This document shows positions 5,944-16,602 of a stretch of 64,000 nucleotides of DNA, piece after piece. The translations under genes and the position numbers were made by a program. The stretch spans positions 62,001-126,000 of the forward strand of contig QCHB01000006.1 of NCBI GenBank assembly GCA_003278095.1, given 5' to 3'. The notes beneath the pieces were generated by a model, which did not search any database, was not told where the DNA came from, and worked only from the letters and a program-made list of their open reading frames with translations. This stretch comes from SAR116 cluster bacterium AG-390-L20. GTDB lineage: Bacteria > Pseudomonadota > Alphaproteobacteria > Puniceispirillales > Marisalimonadaceae. Each line of letters begins with the position of its first letter. Within the stretch, counting starts at the first letter, position 1.

Positions 5944-6744
5944 ATGAATGAACTACAATTTTCAATTGGTATTTTGAGTTGGAGAGGGTATGAGAGTTTA
6001 AAAAACTCACTTATTTCATACGAAAAAAATGGTCTTTCACAATTAACAAATAAAAAGTTTATTTGTTTACCTGAATATAATGGTGAAGGAATTAAAATAG
6101 CTAAAAAGTTTAATTATAAGCCTATTTTAATTAGAGAGAATATTGGAATTCTTGGAGGATTCAAAGAATTAGCTAAACAAATGCCCAAAGGGCCAATCTT
6201 GTTATTAGAAAATGATCTAGAATTAATTGAGAATAAAAAAACTACATTTAATCAACTTAAACAATCAATTGATAATCTTTATAAACAAAATGCAATTCAA
6301 GTAAGATTAAGAAGCAGGTTCGATCCCGGAGAACCTTTTGTAGGTCTAGTAAAATATAAAAGATATTGGTCGAACAATTTTTTTTGTTCTATTAAAAGAT
6401 TCTTTAGACCCAAAAAGGCAAACAAATTAATTGGAACTTCAATATACTCAATTCAAAATCCAGAAATTCGTCATCCCAAATATATAAAAAAACTAGCAAA
6501 TGGTTTTTTTTTAGTACCGAGCTCAACTTTAAATTGGGCTAATTTAGCGATTTTAGTTGATCGTGATAGTTATTTAAGAATTATCATAAAAAGGGCAGAA
6601 GAAACTAAATCGAAGAAATATATTAATGGTTTCAAAAATGTGGAAATTGAATTAAATAGTAATTGGTGGTCAGAAAATAATTTTAAAATCTTATTAGCAC
6701 CTGGCTTGTTTAAGCATAATAGGCTATCAGATCGGGGTTATTAA
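5944..6744 (+). CDS. Glycosyltransferase-like protein (GT-A fold suspected)
   Basis: Unassigned protein of 266 residues that looks like a family 2-type glycosyltransferase. The N-terminus reads as a beta-strand and helix typical of GT-A enzymes (SIGILSWRGYESLKNSL), followed by RENIGILGGFKELAKQ and then a strand ending in LLLENDLEL, which sits where GT-A enzymes carry the metal-binding DxD-type motif. The C-terminal half is basic, with aromatic residues. No membrane segment is obvious. It follows the SbmA-like gene by 16 bases and ends convergently with glmU. Substrate cannot be guessed; a polysaccharide or lipopolysaccharide role would suit the neighbourhood but is inference. Confidence 0.55.
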   Translation: MNELQFSIGILSWRGYESLKNSLISYEKNGLSQLTNKKFICLPEYNGEGIKIAKKFNYKPILIRENIGILGGFKELAKQMPKGPILLLENDLELIENKKTTFNQLKQSIDNLYKQNAIQVRLRSRFDPGEPFVGLVKYKRYWSNNFFCSIKRFFRPKKANKLIGTSIYSIQNPEIRHPKYIKKLANGFFLVPSSTLNWANLAILVDRDSYLRIIIKRAEETKSKKYINGFKNVEIELNSNWWSENNFKILLAPGLFKHNRLSDRGY

Positions 6745-6775
6745 CCCGTCATTTTTATTATTTTTTCTTTTTGTT
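6735..6775 (+). terminator. Possible intrinsic terminator after the glycosyltransferase-like gene
   Basis: A short hairpin GGGTT-ATT-AACCC (6735-6747) overlaps the stop codon of the preceding gene and is followed by a T-rich run (6751-6775). It would end the mre-mrd-rodA transcript before the convergent glmU. The stem has only five base pairs, so the call is tentative. Confidence 0.45.
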
Positions 6776-8044
6776 TATTTGGTAAGCTCTACCAATAGAA
6801 AGTGTATTATCAGGTATATCTTTGTTGAAGGTACTCCCAGCTCCCATTGTAACATTTTCACCAATATTAATTGGAGCAATAATTGTCGAGTTAGACCCTA
6901 CAAAGGAGTTTTTACCAATTTTAGTTTTTTGTTTATTTTTTCCGTCATAGTTACAGGTTATAGTTCCAGCTCCGATATTTGTAGATGAACCGATTTCACT
7001 GTCACCAATATATGATAAATGGTTAACTTTTACCTCTTCTAAAAGTTTGCTTTTTTTAATTTCAACAAAATTGCCTATTTTAGAGTTTTTGCCTATAACA
7101 CTATTTTCTCTTATCCTTGCAAATGGACCAATTATTGATCCTGATTCTACTTTACATTTCTCTAAATGAGAAAAAGATTTGATTTCGACTGATGCTTCAA
7201 TAATAACATTATGGCCAAAAACAACATTAGGATGTATTACAACATCTTTTCCAAATTTAGTGTCATGATTGATAAAAATAGTTTCAGGATCTATTAACTT
7301 AACACCTTTTAACATAGCGTTTCGTCTTAATAAATTTTGAGAAATTTTTTCTGCAATTGACAAGTCAACTTGATTATTGATACCTATGATCTCTTCTTTT
7401 TTTATTTCAATAAAAGATATTTTCTTTTTTTGTTTATTTAATATTTTGACAAGATCAGTTAAATAAAACTCTTTAGTAATTAAATTTTCTTGAATTTTGT
7501 CCAATTGATCTATCTCTGAGCTATGTATGGCCATAACACCGCCATTACAGAAATCTGAATTAATATCACTTACTTCAGCATCTTTTTGCTCTATAATTTC
7601 TATAGGTTCATTTTTAGTTGAGAATATAATTTTTCCATAGTTGTTTTTTTCAAACTTCTTAAAGCCAGTTATTACGAGTTTAGTTTCATTTTCAAATGCC
7701 TTTATAACTCTTTTAAAAGTTTCAGAGGTTAAAAAGGGGGTGTCTCCAAAACATACAAGTATTATACCTGTAAAATTTTTAAGCAAGTTAGAAGCTTTTT
7801 TAACAGCATCACCAGTACCTTTTGGTGTTTTTTGAACGACTGTTTCAAAATCGTTGCAAATGTCTTCAAATGCTTCGCACTTTTCTGGAATAACAATTAT
7901 ACATTTTTTTATGTTTGCTGACCTGTTGGCGTCAATTACTCGCTCAAGTATTGTTTTACCAGAAATTAAGTGCAATGGTTTAGGAATGTCTGAAAACATC
8001 CTACTACCTTTTCCAGCACTTAAAATTATTGAACAAACTTCCAT
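6758..8044 (-). CDS. glmU: Bifunctional GlmU, UDP-GlcNAc synthesis
   Basis: Cytoplasmic enzyme that acetylates glucosamine-1-phosphate and then transfers UMP to give UDP-GlcNAc, precursor of peptidoglycan and lipid A. The N-terminal uridylyltransferase domain starts with LSAGKGSRM and SDIPKPLH, the nucleotide-binding signature. The C-terminal half, from about residue 245, is a left-handed beta-helix of hexapeptide repeats and carries the acetyltransferase segments HLSYIGDSEIG and GAGTITCNYDG. The 428 residues are a little short for the family but both domains appear complete. It is divergent from glmS, with 92 bases between the two starts, so the two amino-sugar genes can share a control region. 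Confidence 0.95.
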   Translation of the reverse strand: MEVCSIILSAGKGSRMFSDIPKPLHLISGKTILERVIDANRSANIKKCIIVIPEKCEAFEDICNDFETVVQKTPKGTGDAVKKASNLLKNFTGIILVCFGDTPFLTSETFKRVIKAFENETKLVITGFKKFEKNNYGKIIFSTKNEPIEIIEQKDAEVSDINSDFCNGGVMAIHSSEIDQLDKIQENLITKEFYLTDLVKILNKQKKKISFIEIKKEEIIGINNQVDLSIAEKISQNLLRRNAMLKGVKLIDPETIFINHDTKFGKDVVIHPNVVFGHNVIIEASVEIKSFSHLEKCKVESGSIIGPFARIRENSVIGKNSKIGNFVEIKKSKLLEEVKVNHLSYIGDSEIGSSTNIGAGTITCNYDGKNKQKTKIGKNSFVGSNSTIIAPINIGENVTMGAGSTFNKDIPDNTLSIGRAYQINKKKK

Positions 8045-8136: not shown

Positions 8137-9984
8137 ATGTGTGGTGTGGTTGCTGTCTTAGGTAAAGAAAATGCAAGCCAACTTGTTATTGAAGGACTAA
8201 AAAAACTTGAATATCGTGGTTATGACTCAGCAGGTATTACTTCTGTTTCCCAAGGTTTATTGCAAACAATAAAATCTGAAGGCAAGCTCTTAAATTTGAT
8301 TGGAAAGTTAGATAAGTCAACGAAAGAAAAATTATATTTTGATAATTCTATTGCTTTAGGTCACACAAGATGGGCAACACACGGAAACGTAAGTTTTGAA
8401 AATGCTCATCCTTTAACTAGCGAGAACAAAATAGCAGTTGTACATAATGGAATAATAGAAAACTTTGAAATTTTAAAAAAAGAACTAATATCGCTAGGTT
8501 ATAATTTTAGAAGTATGACAGATACTGAGGTGTTACCTCATTTATTTATGAAATACATTAAAATGGGCAATGATCTTTTGGAAGCAGGCAGACTTGTGCT
8601 AAAGGACATAAAAGGTGCATTTGCTTTTGTTGCAATGAGTGTAGACTTCCCAAACCAATTATTTGTCTCAAGAAACTCATCCCCTTTAGCAATAGGTTTG
8701 GGAGATAATGCGAATTTTATAGGTTCTGACGCTCATTCAATAGATCACTTAACACAAAAAATTATTTATCTAGAAGACGGTGATCATGCATTAGTAAAAA
8801 TTAACAAGATAAGTATTTTTGATAAAAATTTTAAAAAAGTAAGCAGAAAAATAATTAATATTCAAGCTGAAATAGGTTTGATCACAAAAGGTGGTTATAA
8901 ACATTTTATGGAAAAAGAAATTTTTGAACAACCAGTTGTTCTGCCCCAAACCACATCAAGTTTTATTAAGAATAATTCTGAAATTACAATTGATCTTGAT
9001 AAATTAGGCTTTAAAAACAAAAATTCTTTAATCATTTGTGCTGCGGGCACAAGTTATTATGCAGGAATAGTTGGCAAGTATTGGATTGAACAAATTGCAG
9101 ATATACCTGTTATTGTTGATCTTGCCTCAGAATATAGATATAGAAAACCATCAATTTTTGGTCAAAATTCAATTTTAGTCATTTCCCAATCTGGAGAAAG
9201 TTTAGACACTCTTATGGCATTGAGGTATGCGAAAGAATTAGGTCTTAAAACTAATGCAATTGTAAATGTAGAAGGTAGTACTATAGATAGAGAAGTTGAC
9301 TATAGTCTATATAGTAAAGTGGGACCAGAAATAGGTGTTGCAAGTACAAAATCATTTACTTCTCAACTTGTTATTTTATTTTTAATTGCTGTAAGTTTAG
9401 GTAAAAAATTTAATAGCTTAACCCTAACCCAAATGAGAAAAAAATGTCAGTTAATTAATATGTTACCTAGTGCTATTGCTAAAATGTTAGAAAAAGAAAA
9501 TCAAATAAAATTAATTGCTCAAAATATTAAGAATTCAAAAAGTGTTATTTTCTTAGGAAGAGGTCTTTTATATCCTCTTGCACTTGAAGGAGCATTAAAA
9601 TTAAAAGAAATAAGCTATATCCATGCTGAAGGTTTTGCCGCAGGAGAAATGAAACATGGACCAATTGCTCTTATCGAAGATGACGTTCCAGTTATTATGT
9701 TTTTAGTATCAGATGGTAATGAAGACAAAGCGATCAGCAATTTACAAGAAGCTTATTCTAGAGGTGCAAAAATTATTTTAATTGCGGATAAAAAATGTAT
9801 TGATAAAGCCACTTTTGCACATTTCACAGTTGAAATAGCAGAATTTGAAAATGAATTTAAATCTTTATTGTCTCCCTTATTGATGTCTGTTCCGGCCCAG
9901 TTGTTAGCTTATCACGTTGCCAAGGAAAGAGGCACTGATGTAGATCAGCCAAGGAACTTAGCAAAGTCAGTGACCGTAGAATAA
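8137..9984 (+). CDS. glmS: Glutamine-fructose-6-phosphate aminotransferase
   Basis: Makes glucosamine-6-phosphate from fructose-6-phosphate and glutamine, the entry step to UDP-GlcNAc. Cys2 (MCGVVAVLG) is the N-terminal nucleophile of the glutaminase domain; two SIS sugar-binding domains follow, with ICAAGTSYYAG and VISQSGESLDT in the first, and the protein ends with the conserved RNLAKSVTVE. An AGAGG ribosome-binding sequence precedes the ATG. The length of 615 is normal. The last codons are also the target of an insertion hotspot: three further copies of this terminus lie downstream within 3.5 kb. No glmS riboswitch is visible in the 92-base leader. Confidence 0.97.
   Translation: MCGVVAVLGKENASQLVIEGLKKLEYRGYDSAGITSVSQGLLQTIKSEGKLLNLIGKLDKSTKEKLYFDNSIALGHTRWATHGNVSFENAHPLTSENKIAVVHNGIIENFEILKKELISLGYNFRSMTDTEVLPHLFMKYIKMGNDLLEAGRLVLKDIKGAFAFVAMSVDFPNQLFVSRNSSPLAIGLGDNANFIGSDAHSIDHLTQKIIYLEDGDHALVKINKISIFDKNFKKVSRKIINIQAEIGLITKGGYKHFMEKEIFEQPVVLPQTTSSFIKNNSEITIDLDKLGFKNKNSLIICAAGTSYYAGIVGKYWIEQIADIPVIVDLASEYRYRKPSIFGQNSILVISQSGESLDTLMALRYAKELGLKTNAIVNVEGSTIDREVDYSLYSKVGPEIGVASTKSFTSQLVILFLIAVSLGKKFNSLTLTQMRKKCQLINMLPSAIAKMLEKENQIKLIAQNIKNSKSVIFLGRGLLYPLALEGALKLKEISYIHAEGFAAGEMKHGPIALIEDDVPVIMFLVSDGNEDKAISNLQEAYSRGAKIILIADKKCIDKATFAHFTVEIAEFENEFKSLLSPLLMSVPAQLLAYHVAKERGTDVDQPRNLAKSVTVE
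9963..9984 (+). repeat. glmS-tail repeat, copy 1 (working end of glmS)
   Basis: The last 22 bases of glmS, encoding K-S-V-T-V-E-stop with the codons GTG ACC GTA GAA TAA at the end. It is the first of four direct copies found downstream. Copy 2 matches at 18 of 22 positions, and all four mismatches are synonymous third-position changes. This is the probable attachment site of the inserted units. Confidence 0.85.
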
Positions 9985-9986
9985 CA

Positions 9987-10002
9987 TCCAAAGGACGCAC
10001 TA
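9987..10002 (+). repeat. 16-bp terminal inverted repeat, left copy
   Basis: TCCAAAGGACGCACTA begins two bases after the glmS stop and ends one base before the ATG of the nuclease gene. Its exact reverse complement lies at 11203-11218, just after that gene. Half of its bases are G or C, which stands out in this AT-rich surrounding. Confidence 0.85.
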
Positions 10003-10003
10003 G

Positions 10004-11188
10004 ATGCCACTAAATGATTTATTCAAAAAATCAAAAGAAACTATTGATAAAATGACTATCAAACAGTTAGTTACTCTTGCTGGAGGAGATGAGAGACTTT
10101 CTGACGACAGTGATGCTCAAATAGAAATGAGAGATTTCTTCACAAAAATAGAGAACGAAAAGTTAACTCAATATTCTAATATGTGTCTAAAGGAACCGTT
10201 CGAAAATAGCGGTCTTGTATTACAAGATATTGTTAATGAAATGGGTAGAAGAATTAATTTTGAGGTTAAAAATGGACTCTATCAAGGAAGTAGCAAAAAA
10301 TTAGGGTTTGATGGTATTTGGCGTACATCTGATTTTGATTTTGTCATTGAAACCAAAACAACGTCTAAGTTTCCTATAAACTTAGAAAGAGCAGAGCAAA
10401 TAAGATTGGGTTTAATAAATGACCAAACAATATCACCCAATTCTGCAACTCTATTCGTAGTAGGAAGGCAAGATACCTTAAATCTGGAACAACAAATAAG
10501 AGGTTCAAGATACTCTTGGTCAATGAGAATTATTGGTCTTGAGTCTTTAATAAAATTAATGGGAATTTATGAAAACTCATTTTCTAATGAGGTTGAGTAC
10601 AAAATTAGAGAAATGTTAAAACCGGCAGAGTATACGAGAATAGATAATATTGTAGAAATTGTTTTCACAACCTCAACTGATAAAACATTGTCTGATGAGA
10701 TTACTATAGAAGAGGATACTGAGACAAATGAGGGTGACCAAGAGAAAGTTAATAATAGAGAACTTCACAAAATAAAAAGAATGGAAATTGCTGATGCATT
10801 CTCTAAATCAAAAAACACAACTATATTACCAAGAAAAACTGCACTTTTCTCTAATTCAGATAATTCTTTGAAAGTAGCAATATCAATATCAAAAAGATAT
10901 AATCGTTCAGACCAAAAATATTGGTTTGCTTATTTAGAACCTATGAGAGAATTCTTATCTACTGATAATTCGTTTATGGTTTTTGGACTACTTGATAAAA
11001 ACTTTGCTTTTGTTCTCCCTAAGAAAAAGATTGAAGAATTAAGACCACTATTGAATACAACGCCAGAAAAAGAAAACAGAAAAGAGTATTGGCATGTCGA
11101 TTTCAGAGAAAGGGACGATAAAATAGTAATGAATTTACCAAAGGAAAAATCATTTTTTGAATTAGAACCATACAAATTGAGTTTTTGA
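10004..11188 (+). CDS. Stand-alone PD-(D/E)XK nuclease-like protein
   Basis: Protein of 394 residues with a probable restriction-endonuclease-type nuclease domain in its N-terminal half. The motif is read from Asp103 in LGFDGIW, then Glu116-Thr-Lys118 in DFVIETKTT after a strand, with Glu79 on a preceding helix; this is the E...D...ExK arrangement of the fold. The first domain appears to end near MRIIGLESLIKL (about residue 180), followed by an acidic linker (about 225-245) and a C-terminal domain containing LNTT and YWHVDF. No methyltransferase partner is present. The gene is the only one between the two 16-bp inverted repeats. It could be a restriction or defence nuclease, or a homing-type nuclease that promotes its own insertion; the sequence does not decide. 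The nuclease call is moderately firm, the role is inference. Confidence 0.6.
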   Translation: MPLNDLFKKSKETIDKMTIKQLVTLAGGDERLSDDSDAQIEMRDFFTKIENEKLTQYSNMCLKEPFENSGLVLQDIVNEMGRRINFEVKNGLYQGSSKKLGFDGIWRTSDFDFVIETKTTSKFPINLERAEQIRLGLINDQTISPNSATLFVVGRQDTLNLEQQIRGSRYSWSMRIIGLESLIKLMGIYENSFSNEVEYKIREMLKPAEYTRIDNIVEIVFTTSTDKTLSDEITIEEDTETNEGDQEKVNNRELHKIKRMEIADAFSKSKNTTILPRKTALFSNSDNSLKVAISISKRYNRSDQKYWFAYLEPMREFLSTDNSFMVFGLLDKNFAFVLPKKKIEELRPLLNTTPEKENRKEYWHVDFRERDDKIVMNLPKEKSFFELEPYKLSF

Positions 11189-11202
11189 ATGTTTGATTTT
11201 AA

Positions 11203-11218
11203 TAGTGCGTCCTTTGGA
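11203..11218 (-). repeat. 16-bp terminal inverted repeat, right copy
   Basis: TAGTGCGTCCTTTGGA is the exact reverse complement of 9987-10002. It lies 14 bases after the nuclease stop and two bases before glmS-tail copy 2, mirroring the layout on the left side. The two repeats and the tails outside them give the section the look of a small element with defined ends. Confidence 0.85.
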
Positions 11219-11220
11219 AC

Positions 11221-11242
11221 AAAGTCAGTCACTGTGGAGTAA
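11221..11242 (+). repeat. glmS-tail repeat, copy 2
   Basis: Matches copy 1 at 18 of 22 bases and encodes the same K-S-V-T-V-E-stop with different codons: GTC ACT GTG GAG TAA. Because every change is silent, this stretch probably evolved as the coding end of a glmS gene before being separated from it. No glmS body precedes it. Confidence 0.85.
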
Positions 11243-11257
11243 TCCGAAGAGGTGAAT

Positions 11258-11580
11258 ATGGTTACTTTCTTCGTTTTCAAATATGGCAAAGATTTAATAA
11301 TCTAATTCTAAATTATAATTCCAGTAATTGGTATGATGAACAACAAGAGACTCACGACCTTATCAAGTCTCTTCATGATAGTGGTCTTGGTTATCGTAAG
11401 ATTGCACAGCACTTGAATGAGAAGGGGATTAAGACTGTGAAGGGTAATGATTGGAAGAATACCCAAGTACATTCTGTTTTAAAGAGGTATAGAGAATGAA
11501 AGGAGAGGTTGGAATTGATTAATAGAGTATATGAACCAGAGTTGGGAAAGATGTATATAAAGACAGTTAAGAGGATATAA
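11258..11580 (+). pseudogene. Decayed recombinase-like HTH gene (first copy)
   Basis: Remnant that reads, across interruptions, as one protein. An ATG at 11258 opens a frame that soon shifts to a second frame carrying FQIWQRFNNLILNYNSSNWY, then a helix-turn-helix-like region GLGYRKIAQHLNEKGIKT and KNTQVHSVLKRYRE. A TGA at 11497-11499 interrupts it, after which KERLELINRVYEPELGKM continues in frame to a stop at 11580. The G-x-x-Y-x-x-I-A-x-x-L-N-x-x-G-I-x-T pattern resembles the recombinase region of large serine recombinases, but no catalytic domain is present. Other genes here use TGA as stop, so recoding is unlikely. It starts 16 bases after tail copy 2, as its relative does after copy 4. 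Confidence 0.65.
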
Positions 11581-11583
11581 AAA

Positions 11584-11925
11584 TTAACGGTCTTTTAGAA
11601 AATTATGACGATCAAATAATTTTTTAACATCAATATAAATTTGATTTTTTAATTTTATTATAACTTCATTTTTATTTATTTTAGATCTTTCTTTTGTGCA
11701 AACACCACATTGTATTAATCTATCTAAATATTTATTAAATGCATCTATTCTTGGTTTTTTCCCGTAAATATTATCATATAAATCAGTTATACTATAGAAC
11801 TTTTGATCCATAAAAAGTACCAATAATTCTAGAGAATACATCTTTTCACTAAAGACCTTTAAGTAATTATTTGAATTAAAGTCTACAAAAAAGTTTGATT
11901 TATTTTCTCGAATATTTTTGTTCAT
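11584..11925 (-). CDS. Small uncharacterised protein, possible winged helix
   Basis: ORF of 113 residues on the opposite strand to its surroundings; not recognised. The central part (MYSLELLVLFMDQKFYSITDLYDNIYG, then a helix ending in LDRLIQCGVC, then a beta-hairpin-like NKNEVIIKLK) could form a winged-helix fold of the kind used by small transcription regulators. There are many lysines, no signal peptide and no membrane segment. It ends three bases from the decayed recombinase-like gene and has about 165 bases of free sequence upstream on its own side. Likely a cargo or control gene of the inserted region, but it could be a chance ORF. Confidence 0.45.
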   Translation of the reverse strand: MNKNIRENKSNFFVDFNSNNYLKVFSEKMYSLELLVLFMDQKFYSITDLYDNIYGKKPRIDAFNKYLDRLIQCGVCTKERSKINKNEVIIKLKNQIYIDVKKLFDRHNFLKDR

Positions 11926-12091
11926 TATTATAGAAATTTTATATTATTAAAATGTTTTAATAAATTAGGTTAACTCTAAATTTGTATCAAGCAGTTTTGA
12001 TTAACTTATTAATTAACATTAATTCAGTATATGTATTTCATATATTCTTATCATTATATATTTTAAGTTAATTTAAGAACATAAAGTTATA

Positions 12092-12241
12092 ATGTTTATA
12101 AACTTTATTAAAAAACTTTTCTCAACATATTTTTTAACAAAAAATAAGTGCATTTTTTGTAATAAATCTTCAAATAATTTGTTTTTACATCCAGATGGTG
12201 GTCCTGGCGGTGTTTGTAAGAATTGTTTTAAAAATATTTAA
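12092..12241 (+). CDS. Tiny zinc-ribbon-like protein (49 residues)
   Basis: A short ORF starting at ATG 12092 and ending at TAA 12239-12241. The product begins with an amphipathic, aromatic-rich helix (MFINFIKKLFSTYFL) and then carries two CxxC pairs, CIFC and CKNC, separated by a loop with HPDGGPGG. Four cysteines in this layout fit a small treble-clef or zinc-ribbon knuckle. The pair spacing and glycine-rich loop make a chance ORF less likely. No function can be given. It sits in the middle of the glmS-tail hotspot with free sequence on both sides. Confidence 0.5.
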   Translation: MFINFIKKLFSTYFLTKNKCIFCNKSSNNLFLHPDGGPGGVCKNCFKNI

Positions 12242-12578
12242 TTTACCGTAATTATTATAATAAACGAACAATTTTACTCTTAATATTATGTATTGATTGT
12301 TTAAAATGATTATCGTAAATATTCAGTTAATTTCAAAAGATAAGAAGAATAAAAAAACTTGGATATGTTATAAAAGAGGGGAGTAATACTCACAAAAGTA
12401 ATACTATGAAATTTGTTACTTCTCATAAAAAAGTCATGACGAAGGGGTCATGTTAAATTGTAAGTTAAATCCAATCAGTAACTGTAGAATAGCGTTGTAG
12501 GTATGCAAGAAATTGCTTAACACCTTTTTCACTGTTTATGAGATAAATTTTTCGTACATAAAAATGTATTGATTAGAG
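12242..12578. other. Gene-free stretch holding glmS-tail copy 3 and small palindromes
   Basis: No convincing gene. It contains the palindrome GAGTAATACTC at 12381-12391 with a partial second copy (AGTAATACT) at 12398-12406, the inverted repeat CATGAC-6-GTCATG at 12435-12452, and glmS-tail copy 3 at 12474-12492. A 26-codon ORF from 12307 is too short and featureless to call. The palindromes may be operators or recombination sites, but nothing shows which. Confidence 0.5.
12474..12492 (+). repeat. glmS-tail repeat, copy 3
   Basis: Encodes S-V-T-V-E-stop as TCA GTA ACT GTA GAA TAG. It differs from copy 1 by silent third-base changes and by the stop codon (TAG for TAA). The preceding lysine codon is no longer present in the same form, so this copy is shorter or more decayed than copy 2. 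Confidence 0.7.
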
Positions 12579-13442
12579 ATGTATATTGGATATCATGATT
12601 TCTTTATGGAAACAAAAATAAAAAAATTCGTGAATGACTGGTTAAGTTTTATTGTGGGATATAAACTAATTCGCTCAAATAACTATAAGTTAGAACGTAC
12701 TGCAAAGAAATTATTTAAAAACAGATTTTTAAAATACTCAGAAGATGGCTATTATTTTGTAGATCCGATGCCTAATGAACAAGAATTATACGAGTACTAC
12801 AAGCATATTTACTGGAATAAAAGAAATAGCATTTCCAATAATAACCAAATGAAAAAGGATCATGATTTAACAAGACGTAAAACTGCTGCAAAATTTCGTG
12901 ATTTTGTTCATAACTTAATATTAAAAAAATATATTCCCAATTATCTAAAGGAAAAAAAAACTTTCCTGAATTTTGGATCAGGGGACTTTGGCTTGTCTTT
13001 AATCCTATGGACGGATGGTTTGAATATAAAAAATGTCGAGCCCTCTCACAATCCCAAACTTTTCGATAATAGGTGGGAAACATTTAAGTCATTAGAAGAT
13101 GTTGAAGATAATTCAGTGGATATTTTTTATTCCTCGCATTCATTGGAACACGTTGCAAATATTGAGAGTTTTATCAAGAATGCGCGTCGAATCACCAAAA
13201 GTAACTCAGCACTATTTTTTGAAGTGCCGAACGCCAACTCTCCAAAGGTCGGTGCAAAGCAGGGAAAAATTACAATTCCGCACACCTATTATTTCGAAAA
13301 CAAATTTTTTGAAAACCTTTTTGATGAAATAATATTAAACCAAAATTTTTTTGGAAGTGAACTTGGGCAAGATATTGAGGGGTGGGAAGATTATTCAGAT
13401 AATAACGGAGATGTTATTCGCGCTATAGGAAAATTCTACTAG
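12579..13442 (+). CDS. Class I SAM-dependent methyltransferase-like protein
   Basis: Protein of 287 residues of the Methyltransf_23 type. The SAM-binding motif I is FLNFGSGDFGLSLILW, followed by a strand ending in NVEPS, and the post-motif DIFYSSHSLEHV is the typical acidic strand and HxLEH segment. Catalytic context is intact. The start may be ATG 12579 or ATG 12606 (METKIKKF); neither has a clear ribosome-binding site. The gene is bounded by glmS-tail copies 3 and 4, which makes it the cargo of one inserted unit. Enzymes of this class often modify sugars or O-antigen parts, but the substrate here is unknown. Confidence 0.7.
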   Translation: MYIGYHDFFMETKIKKFVNDWLSFIVGYKLIRSNNYKLERTAKKLFKNRFLKYSEDGYYFVDPMPNEQELYEYYKHIYWNKRNSISNNNQMKKDHDLTRRKTAAKFRDFVHNLILKKYIPNYLKEKKTFLNFGSGDFGLSLILWTDGLNIKNVEPSHNPKLFDNRWETFKSLEDVEDNSVDIFYSSHSLEHVANIESFIKNARRITKSNSALFFEVPNANSPKVGAKQGKITIPHTYYFENKFFENLFDEIILNQNFFGSELGQDIEGWEDYSDNNGDVIRAIGKFY

Positions 13443-13452
13443 CTCTCTAAAA

Positions 13453-13473
13453 CAGTCATTAACAGTTGAATAT
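13453..13473 (+). repeat. glmS-tail repeat, copy 4 (degenerate)
   Basis: Reads Q-S-L-T-V-E-Y (TCA TTA ACA GTT GAA TAT) beginning 11 bases after the methyltransferase stop. Valine has become leucine and the stop codon has become TAT, so this is the most changed copy. Position and orientation match the other copies, and a decayed recombinase-like gene follows it at once, as after copy 2. Confidence 0.55.
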
Positions 13474-13787
13474 TGGGGTTAGGTGGTATTTAGATAATCC
13501 TAATATTAAAGTTTTTATATCATTTATAGTTAAGATTACTACATCTCATCCTAGGAAAATAAGATATTACTTTTACCAACAAACTTCTGGGAAATTATTA
13601 AACATAAACAAAAGTCTGGAATGGGTATCGCAAGATTTCCTATTGGTTAAAAAAAACATGGATATAGGACATTAAGAGGACGTGAGTTCAAAAATACTCA
13701 TGTCTTTTCTATTCTAAAAGGGAACGTATTGCAGATGAAGGAATGGAGAAGATATTTGACCCTACAATAGTTGATTTAAATATTTAA
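13466..13787 (+). pseudogene. Decayed recombinase-like HTH gene (second copy)
   Basis: Relative of the remnant at 11258-11580, broken by at least three frameshifts. The first frame opens at TTG 13466 and gives NIGVRWYLDNPNIKVF and RKIRYYFYQQ. A second frame gives KSGMGIARF. After a run of eight A bases (13649-13656) a third frame gives HGYRTLRGREFKNTHVFSIL, and a further shift gives RERIADEGMEKIFDPTIVDL to a stop at 13787. The reassembled order G-M-G-I-A-R-(Y)-W-L...H-G-Y-R-T matches the helix-turn-helix region of the first remnant. It overlaps tail copy 4 and is plainly not functional. The 97 bases from here to the next gene hold nothing recognisable. Confidence 0.65.
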
Positions 13788-16320: not shown

Positions 16321-16602
16321 ATGAAAAACATTCTTTCAAGTTTTGAAAAAAAAGCATTACGTAAAAAAGCTTATTCACTTAAACCTGTTGTTATTATTGG
16401 TCAAAATGGCCTTACTGACGCTGTTCTTGATGAAATTGATGTTTCTTTAAATTCACATGAACTTATAAAAATTCGTATTAGGGGCGTGAATAAAAATGAA
16501 CGTTATAATATATGTTTGAAAATAGAACAAAAATTAAAAGCCGAATTGGTGTATCAGATAGGTTTCATTAAAGTTTTTTATAGATCTAAACCAGAAAATT
16601 AA
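16321..16602 (+). CDS. yhbY: YhbY-family RNA-binding protein
   Basis: Small protein (93 residues) of the CRS1/YhbY domain family, associated in bacteria with maturation of the large ribosomal subunit. The GxxG-type RNA-binding loop is visible in IIGQNGLT, the N-terminal basic helix is KALRKKAYSL, and HELIKIRIRG is the conserved beta-strand. The domain fills the whole protein, as is usual. The gene stands alone between the XRE regulator and the photolyase-like gene, and appears to mark the return to core chromosome after the accessory region. Confidence 0.85.
   Translation: MKNILSSFEKKALRKKAYSLKPVVIIGQNGLTDAVLDEIDVSLNSHELIKIRIRGVNKNERYNICLKIEQKLKAELVYQIGFIKVFYRSKPEN

Follow-up and report, generated by a model that had tools for sequence, protein, structure and literature searches.

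The window analysed here, a 64-kb stretch of DNA from SAR116 cluster bacterium AG-390-L20, contains a glmS gene whose last codons recur downstream, all copies being on the + strand, at 9964-9984 (the present gene end), 11222-11242, 12472-12492 and, in decayed form, 13453-13473. An earlier sequence-only reading had described four such copies in the same orientation, and its details are borne out: K-S-V-T-V-E-stop is encoded by copy 1 as well as by copy 2, with four silent changes between them (GTG/GTC, ACC/ACT, GTA/GTG, GAA/GAG), copy 3 keeps S-V-T-V-E-stop within a full reading of Q-S-V-T-V-E-stop, and in copy 4 the stop and the first Val codon are missing. The features of the locus are distributed as follows.

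8137..9984, + strand: glmS (Pfam SIS and GATase domains), its 3' end being the putative attachment site
9964..9984, + strand: junction 1, the present glmS end; putative crossover AC at 9973-9974
9985..11221, + strand: cassette 1; the arm after junction 1 is similar to arms in loci L033 and L041
9987..10002, + strand: left arm of cassette 1, TCCAAAGGACGCACTA
10004..11188, + strand: 394-aa ORF of cassette 1
11203..11218, - strand: right arm of cassette 1, a perfect inverted copy of the left arm
11222..11242, + strand: junction 2; AC at 11231-11232
11243..12471, + strand: cassette 2
11245..11499, + strand: open frame with PF07508 (DNA-binding domain of large serine recombinases), without catalytic domain
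11584..11925, - strand: 113-aa ORF
12472..12492, + strand: junction 3; AC at 12481-12482; the following arm is similar to one in L071
12493..13452, + strand: cassette 3
12579-13442: methyltransferase-like ORF in cassette 3 (Pfam PF13489)
13453..13473, + strand: junction 4, decayed; the bases of the following arm match, by eye, the cassette starts of L055, another SAR116 genome
13474..16320, + strand: older, decayed part of the array, reaching to yhbY; right limit approximate
16321..16602, + strand: yhbY-like gene, which adjoins glmS in the empty site L045

The perfect 16-bp inverted repeat located just inside the first interval (9987-10002 / 11203-11218) and the DNA-binding ORF located 3' of copy 2, with a decayed relative 3' of copy 4, were absent from the sequence-only reading. 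The start position of this ORF reads CGA in the window and TTG in L039, and its broken relative, at about 13590-13745 (by eye), opens the decayed part of the array. The left 242 bp of cassette 2 share 85.5% identity with cassette 1 of L039; since its two ends form no matching arms, cassette 2 is probably a remnant or a fusion. With respect to the cargo, the methyltransferase previously announced is methyltransferase-like according to Pfam, and the nuclease function suggested for the 394-aa ORF was left unconfirmed by Pfam, PADLOC and PDB, which gave no match. Only weak PHROG and NCBIfam matches occur for this protein, and its fold, predicted without alignment, reached a pLDDT of 33 and was set aside.

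Distribution of the tail motif and occupancy of the site

Taken alone, the number of copies in the window is mildly unusual, with five matches at no more than 2 mismatches, one of them distant and on the opposite strand, and at least five matches in 2 of 100 shuffles. A 21-nt weight matrix built from glmS ends, applied with a cut of 13 bits to loci L032-L111 and the window, gave 62 matches on the glmS strand in 712 kb downstream of glmS, against none on the reverse strand downstream and none on either strand in 663 kb upstream; copy 4 of the window scores under this cut. Because this comparison settles what the window count had left mild, the tail copies are to be taken, at the sequence level, as real and as attachment sites. 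The motif is present in 70 of the 107 SAR86-family genomes, with no control matches, and the largest arrays comprise up to ten sites per region. Apart from few exceptions, it is restricted to the glmS locus, and tail-like sequences at many unrelated loci, which the sequence-only reading had named as evidence against a local hotspot, were not seen; a single reverse-strand exception occurs in the SAR86 regions (L199). Two pattern matches in viral contigs (L147, L148) look like chance or unrelated sequences.

In the empty SAR116 site L045, the yhbY-like gene follows about 30 nt 3' of the glmS stop. Of 24 SAR116 loci, five others show both genes, which are 1.3-6.9 kb apart there, and 6.3 kb apart in the window. 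Similarly, one native flank is common to 12 of 17 Pelagibacter-group loci, which represent empty sites, and is displaced behind a cassette in the filled sites L079 and L087 of the same group. Both the empty sites and the variable cargo that had been proposed as a check in relatives are accordingly found and, together with the confinement of the motif to one locus, they support the idea of a serial site-specific integration that rebuilds the glmS end. In addition, cassette DNA devoid of any large serine recombinase (LSR) gene is 97-99% identical between lineages whose GlmS proteins are only 54-55% identical, and PF00239 found no match in the genomes of L042, L032 and L055, which carry these near-identical cassettes. 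Since such an identity links distant lineages, the sequences attest a recent spread of recombinase-less cassettes between them.

Cassette ends and the point of exchange

The intervals between tails are cassettes of 0.15-5.4 kb. Each has inverted arms of its own, with their centre of symmetry at the Thr-codon A|C. The two arms of a cassette match at one register only (register 4), with at least 12 of 16 positions in 36 of 68 and 44 of 87 cassettes, against 0-2 at every other register tested; the same score is attained in 2.1% and 9.9% of the mis-paired arms used as control, and about half of the cassettes (32 of 68 and 43 of 87) have no matching arms. In two data sets submitted to permutation tests, the left arm is predictive of the tail bases on the left side of AC (0 and 0, then 0 and 2, of 2000 permutations for the Ser and Val wobble positions) and not those right of it. 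Conversely, right arms predict the bases right of AC (1 and 28, then 16 and 1, of 2000 for the second Val and the stop) and not those left of it. For the Thr wobble, dependence on the right arm is seen in the first set only (22 of 2000, against 229 of 2000 in the SAR86 set), and for the Glu wobble in the SAR86 set only (0 of 2000, against 393 of 2000 in the first). The glmS ends were excluded from the right-arm test, related Pelagibacter glmS ends having inflated an earlier table. Because the prediction splits there in both data sets, the crossover is indirectly assigned to the AC of the Thr codon, or at most to ACNGT; a split within AC is as expected of a serine recombinase.

The displaced copies had previously been regarded as old or foreign glmS ends. 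This view holds only for their right half, which is a former end or the right half site of the next cassette. The displaced copy as a whole is a hybrid: the cassette contributes its left half, which extends to the AC in the Thr codon and often reads YAN where glmS has the Lys codon. In A118-type attP sites, positions 16-24, counted from the centre, are read by the zinc domain (PMC3783163); they fall inside the cassette arms (from position 12 on).

Recombinase genes and origin of the arrays

Between glmS and the next tail, LSR genes occur in L171, L172, L174, L184 and L185, at the right end of larger elements of 5.9-8.4 kb. The LSRs of L171, L172 and L174 contain both PF00239 and PF07508, and the element arms match at register 4 in 15, 15 and 16 of 16 positions, respectively; L184 and L185 give LSR-profile matches, with arms matching at 10 of 16 positions in L184 and, in L185, whose frame is broken, out of register (2 of 16). 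Compared with arms of recombinase-less cassettes, the ends of L171, L172 and L174 agree in 16-20 of 20 positions, the best shuffled value being 15. Among draft genomes, PF00239 is found in 3 of 107 of the SAR86 family and in 14 of 58 of the SAR116 family, mostly as short resolvases in the latter, and most array genomes are devoid of LSR. Among 369 gammaproteobacteria, a search with the LSR profile at E 1e-30, run without positive control, gave no match. Two other LSRs were rejected as mother elements: that of G046 (L115, 250 kb along C1), with nearby tail scores of at most 5.5 bits, and that of G138 (L175), with no tail motif at 13 bits and a best nearby score of at most 5.5 bits.

Starting from what the sequences document, namely arrays of one orientation, empty and filled sites, exchange at AC, symmetric arms, in-array LSR genes and shared ends, it is very probable that the last codons of glmS (S-V-T-V-E-stop) serve as the attachment site of an LSR family feeding the cassette arrays. 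LSR elements and small recombinase-less cassettes with matching ends would recombine, probably as circular intermediates, with the glmS end, the LSR being the putative catalyst and presumably acting in trans on the small cassettes. In each event, with the exchange located in the 2-nt AC inside the Thr codon, glmS would gain a new synonymous right half from the incoming cassette, and its old right half would be displaced downstream to form the next junction, so that repeated events would build an array growing in one direction. Textbook serine integrases need a helper factor to recombine attL or attR again (PMC3783163); array growth therefore needs explaining. The left-end PF07508 protein may be an accessory factor. 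There is about an even chance that the whole represents a serine-recombinase counterpart of the integron, in which recombinase-less marine cassettes would pass between lineages and be stacked at glmS by LSRs provided in trans from rare larger elements, the glmS codons being the site and the cassette arms the specificity tags.

Alternatively, the small cassettes could have arisen by deletion from LSR elements that integrated on their own, with no movement in trans. Cassettes and LSR elements have common ends and often a common left-end PF07508 ORF, LSR genes are rare in arrays, and the alignment of L042e2 covers both outer parts of a longer L050 stretch, as a deletion could produce; however, the near-identity of LSR-less cassettes across distant lineages, and the many compact cassettes made of one gene and two intact arms, render this origin rather doubtful. 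Tyrosine recombinases also use and rebuild gene ends, and PF00589 proteins occur in 16 of 16 genomes; an array driven by Xer or an integron-type integrase is nevertheless quite unlikely, as these enzymes exchange over 6-8 nt, whereas the halves here split within 2-5 nt, the in-array recombinase genes are LSRs, and SAR86 array genomes possess only 1-2 PF00589 genes, which in G045, G046, G048, G049 and G051 lie 55 kb or more away from the array.

Tn7 recognises the glmS end but inserts itself 3' of the gene, whose end stays unchanged, whereas here the end itself is exchanged and a tail occurs at every junction, which makes a Tn7-like transposon highly improbable. The sequence-only reading had also set Tn7 aside; that judgement stands by geometry and not by gene absence, since the TniQ search was silent in 14 of 14 controls as well as in 16 of 16 genomes. 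Finally, duplication can yield direct repeats, but a tandem duplication or a chance similarity of the glmS end is hardly conceivable with only about 18-21 nt repeated, unrelated cargo in between, arms at a fixed register, and no copies upstream or reversed.

Related systems, significance and cargo

The nearest known system to the proposed LSR-fed arrays is the staphylococcal cassette chromosome (SCC) at rlmH. There, large serine recombinases of the Ccr type place an island at a housekeeping gene's 3' end; the island ends bear repeats and inverted arms, and composite neighbours occur. The enterococcal cassette chromosome (ECC) resembles SCC in these features (PMC6222049). The glmS arrays share with both an LSR, the 3' end of a housekeeping gene, end repeats with inverted arms, and composite neighbours, but differ in recombinase, target (glmS instead of rlmH) and cassette size: most units, of 0.15-5.4 kb, are devoid of recombinase, arrays reach up to ten sites, and the hosts are marine. 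No curated ccrA, ccrB or ccrC recombinase was recognised by the NCBIfam cut-offs in L171, L172 and L184, the scores being far under them (CcrB, 80.8 bits in L171 and 97.8 in L184 for a cut-off of 900; CcrA, 30.1 bits in L172 for a cut-off of 700).

Integrons possess one- or two-gene cassettes without recombinase, single-orientation arrays and one site per cassette. The small recombinase-less cassettes at glmS, in one orientation and with a site each, are alike in this respect; however, the exchange split and the element genes point to a serine instead of a tyrosine recombinase, and each insertion replaces the end of the coding gene that anchors the array. The sites were scored as glmS-tail sites with inverted arms, and no IntI-type integrase occurs beside the array in the five SAR86 genomes listed above. 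Phage serine integrases show the same order of PF00239 and PF07508 (PF13408 being weakly detected in L171), and the LSRs match the A118 and TP901-1 integrases in PDB and the phrog_95 integrase in PHROG. Yet the phage, plasmid and viral-contig collections contained no close relative: two LSR queries found none in viral contigs, and the distant matches, 168 in phages and 31 in plasmids, never spanned 80% of the query; judged by its ORFs, the element is no phage genome. With Tn7, the arrays share the glmS end as target, at another insertion point.

SAR86, SAR116 and Pelagibacter are major surface-seawater groups, many with small genomes. From the sequences, several ocean bacterial groups appear to keep rows of swappable, integron-like cassettes at glmS, with tails that look like serine recombinase sites; a hotspot in 70 of 107 SAR86-family genomes would represent a standing route of gene turnover. 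It would correspond to a natural serine recombinase family aimed at a single conserved, wobble-tolerant coding site, whose specificity could be read from the many natural half sites, and the arrays allow a test of how serine integrases might use hybrid sites again to extend an array.

As regards the cargo, ten hand-picked cassette proteins all matched PADLOC at E 1e-5. Of 20 proteins drawn at random from the 55 cassettes that have an ORF of 100 aa or more, 4 matched, all among the ten hand-picked (0/10 and 0/6 in the rest). Defence was rejected as the main cargo and is regarded as a minor part of it, because only 4 of the 20 random proteins match; the cargo does include some restriction-modification and candidate defence genes.

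Copies of the glmS tail and occupancy of the site

The genome carrying the window measures 2.2 Mb, and the nearest named loci come from SAR116-cluster single cells. In the window, the end of glmS recurs downstream as tails, i.e., copies of its last codons (S-V-T-V-E-stop) that represent putative attachment sites and delimit cassettes:

8137-9984, + strand: glmS
11222, + strand: copy of the last 21 nt of glmS
12472, + strand: copy of the last 21 nt of glmS
13453, + strand: decayed copy of the last 21 nt of glmS

A weight matrix derived from glmS ends, applied with a 13-bit cut to loci L032-L111 and the window, yielded 62 matches on the glmS strand in 712 kb downstream, and none on the opposite strand or in 663 kb upstream, which bears out the copies in one orientation reported by the sequence-only reading. 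With few exceptions, tail-like sequences keep to this locus. In the window's own genome, a longer pattern allowing two mismatches identified two sites of the array and, outside it, a single poor match. The motif YANTCNGTNACNGTNGARTAR occurs in 70 of the 107 genomes of a SAR86 genome's family, with more than one copy in 35 of these, and a reversed control pattern gave no match in the 107 genomes. Among 20 SAR86 regions with several matches, hand-picked for reading, 18 contain the glmS end, one more (G153) has glmS just upstream, and a site cluster on contig C18 of G090 shows no glmS within the stretches read. This cluster without glmS (L193 and L208) is not the only one in G090, a different contig of which bears a second cluster that is anchored at glmS. 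The one opposite-strand site found at 13 bits in the 20 regions belongs to L199 (G121:C2:126394-126953), where two identical sites lie inverted, 0.5 kb apart.

Relatives offer both empty sites and variable contents. Among 24 SAR116 loci, glmS and a yhbY-like gene are both visible in L045, where yhbY begins about 30 nt past glmS (an empty site), and in five others, where the gap reaches 6.9 (L032), 5.5 (L047), 5.4 (L034), 3.2 (L041) and 1.3 kb (L035). The window has 6.3 kb between the two genes. A native flank directly following glmS is common to 12 of 17 Pelagibacter-group loci, three others possess different flanks, and in L079 and L087 a cassette of 486-487 bp sits between glmS and the native flank. 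In these two loci, glmS keeps the left half of the group's tail with a new right half (GTGGAGTAA), the right half of the empty sites being GTAGAATAA in 11 of 12, and the old right half is now found with the native flank behind the cassette. Judged from its sequence, this layout is the expected reaction product of an insertion.

Cassette arms and the putative crossover point

The inverted arms at the cassette ends are in register when the first base past the stop pairs with the base located four before TCN. At least 12 of 16 positions match in this register in 36 of the 68 cassettes of a first set and 44 of the 87 cassettes from SAR86 regions, against only 0-2 cassettes at eight other registers tried; mis-paired arms reach this score in 2.1% and 9.9% of cases, respectively, because arm families repeat. 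The single register therefore places a symmetry axis inside the Thr codon, between its A and its C.

Array junctions, excluding glmS ends, were also grouped by left or right arm and their tails permuted 2000 times, pairs within one set being non-independent. In the first set, junctions sharing a left arm (34 pairs) agree at the Ser wobble (0.76 versus 0.27 permuted) and the Val wobble (0.74 versus 0.30; 0 of 2000 for both), with no agreement for bases on the tail's right side. Those sharing a right arm (16 pairs) agree at the second Val wobble (0.94 versus 0.42; 1 of 2000) and more weakly at the Thr wobble and the stop (22 and 28 of 2000, respectively), Glu being non-significant (393 of 2000) and the left-side bases showing no agreement. 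The SAR86 regions, a check set added later whose contigs all differ in length from those of the first set, gave 0 (Ser) and 2 (Val) of 2000 for the left arm (177 pairs), and 16 (second Val), 0 (Glu) and 1 (stop) of 2000 for the right arm (100 pairs), with a non-significant Thr wobble (229 of 2000). The tail is thus split in the same way in both sets.

Since the symmetry axis and the arm-tail split converge there, the crossover is assigned, on sequence grounds, to the dinucleotide AC, the limit from the SAR86 set alone being ACNGT. Serine recombinases typically exchange over 2 nt. Their central dinucleotide is treated in PMC3783163. A crossover at the non-palindromic AC also accounts for the single orientation of the arrays. 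Serial integration, as proposed earlier for the window, stands and acquires a probable mechanism from the empty and filled sites and from exchange at AC.

Large serine recombinases and the left-end protein

PF00239 occurs in 3 of 107 SAR86-family and 14 of 58 SAR116-family genomes, in the latter mostly as short resolvase-size frames; G035, G028 and G157 have frames of 573-593 aa. In G134 (L171), G035 (L172) and G157 (L174), a large serine recombinase (LSR) gene lies between the tail of glmS and the tail that follows. It closes the unit on the right in all three, the units measuring 6.0, 8.4 and 5.9 kb, respectively, and an LSR of the same type ends at a tail in G028 (L173), on a contig without glmS. 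PF00239 and PF07508 were both found in L171, L172 and L174, together with an additional 196-aa resolvase-type protein in L172. A match to REP_ORF2-G2P, a rolling-circle type Rep, passes the cut-off of 27.8 bits in the L171 unit (28.7); those in the L174 unit (23.9) and the unit following the LSR in L173 (27.5) stay under it. Compared with the arms of recombinase-less cassettes, those of L171, L172 and L174 are the same at 16-20 of 20 positions, a score of at most 15 being obtained with shuffled arms.

A profile built from these four LSRs retrieved five matches at E 1e-30 or better among 385 alphaproteobacteria, and none among 369 gammaproteobacteria in a search run without positive control. 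Among these five, a full tail stands just past the LSR in G361 (L183), truncated by the contig end, and in G342 (L185), which has glmS, an LSR interrupted by stops, arms out of register and 11 or fewer of 20 positions matching cassette arms. In G493 (L184; 11-14 of 20), the tail is half-decayed, and the row of genes runs from glmS over a PF07508-like ORF and ORFs that by eye resemble methyltransferases to the LSR. Two SAR86 genomes also have LSRs of about 520 aa at a distance from glmS (L115, 6636-8213; L175, reverse complement, 6120-7679), with no glmS-type sites in their vicinity.

Of the 68 first-set cassettes, 29 contain an ORF that has the DNA-binding domain of LSRs but lacks the catalytic one, at the left end in 27, and none of the 87 SAR86-region cassettes does, as judged with a profile from 17 first-set members and their relatives. 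PF07508 gave 11 matches in 16 genomes, ten of them on the downstream side of glmS and no more than about 10 kb from it by coordinate arithmetic, the eleventh being the LSR of G046. The frame of the left-end ORF is open from 2-3 nt past the glmS stop, so that its translation may be coupled to that of glmS. The ORF starts 2 nt after the stop at 11245 in the window and at cassette left ends in L039, L040 and L046.

Cassette movement, known systems and variation of the glmS end

Near-identical cassettes in distinct hosts indicate that cassettes move between lineages: L050 has stretches of 1093 bp (98.7%) and 588 bp (99.0%) in common with the second cassette of L042 (GlmS 54% identical), the first cassettes of L032 and L055 share 809 bp at 97.4% (GlmS 55%), and the second of L106 and the first of L110 share 610 bp at 98.9% (GlmS 87%). 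PF00239 was not found in the genomes of L042, L032, L055 and L106, and that of L110 has one match, distant from glmS. The cassette is uninterrupted in L042, whereas its two counterparts in L050 stand on either side of other DNA that contains a weak internal site at 7842, and nested insertion or deletion is therefore also involved. Cassettes range from 155 to 5376 bp (median 1.2 kb in the first set, 0.67 kb in SAR86 regions). Depending on the cassette, the cargo includes, among hand-picked proteins, members of PDC-S18 and PDC-S26 (candidate defence families) and restriction-modification of types I, II and III, as well as an acetyltransferase and many proteins without family; 4 of 20 randomly drawn cassette proteins have a PADLOC match.

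The system works in the manner of SCC, but by Ccr recombinase and rlmH target it falls outside that group; its rows of tiny recombinase-less units resemble integrons. The odds that it forms a kind of its own appear evenly balanced, and no description was found by title or abstract in the open-access literature searched.

The glmS end itself is apparently traded, as read from 64 close same-genus pairs, in which synonymous differences amount to 0.08 (last Lys codon), 0.30 (Ser), 0.69 (Val), 0.77 (Thr), 0.52 (second Val), 0.50 (Glu) and 0.59 (stop), compared with an upstream fourfold mean of 0.39 (maximum 0.67) and an average of 0.21 for the Glu, Lys and Gln codons there; the profile is descriptive because pairs share descent. 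In the Pelagibacter group (L076-L105), where nearly all sites are empty, close pairs disagree at the Thr wobble, which adjoins the putative crossover, in 68% of cases, compared with 0-17% for other tail positions and 12% for upstream fourfold sites. This variation counts against a simple trading of ends, and is possibly the scar of an earlier insertion followed by excision.
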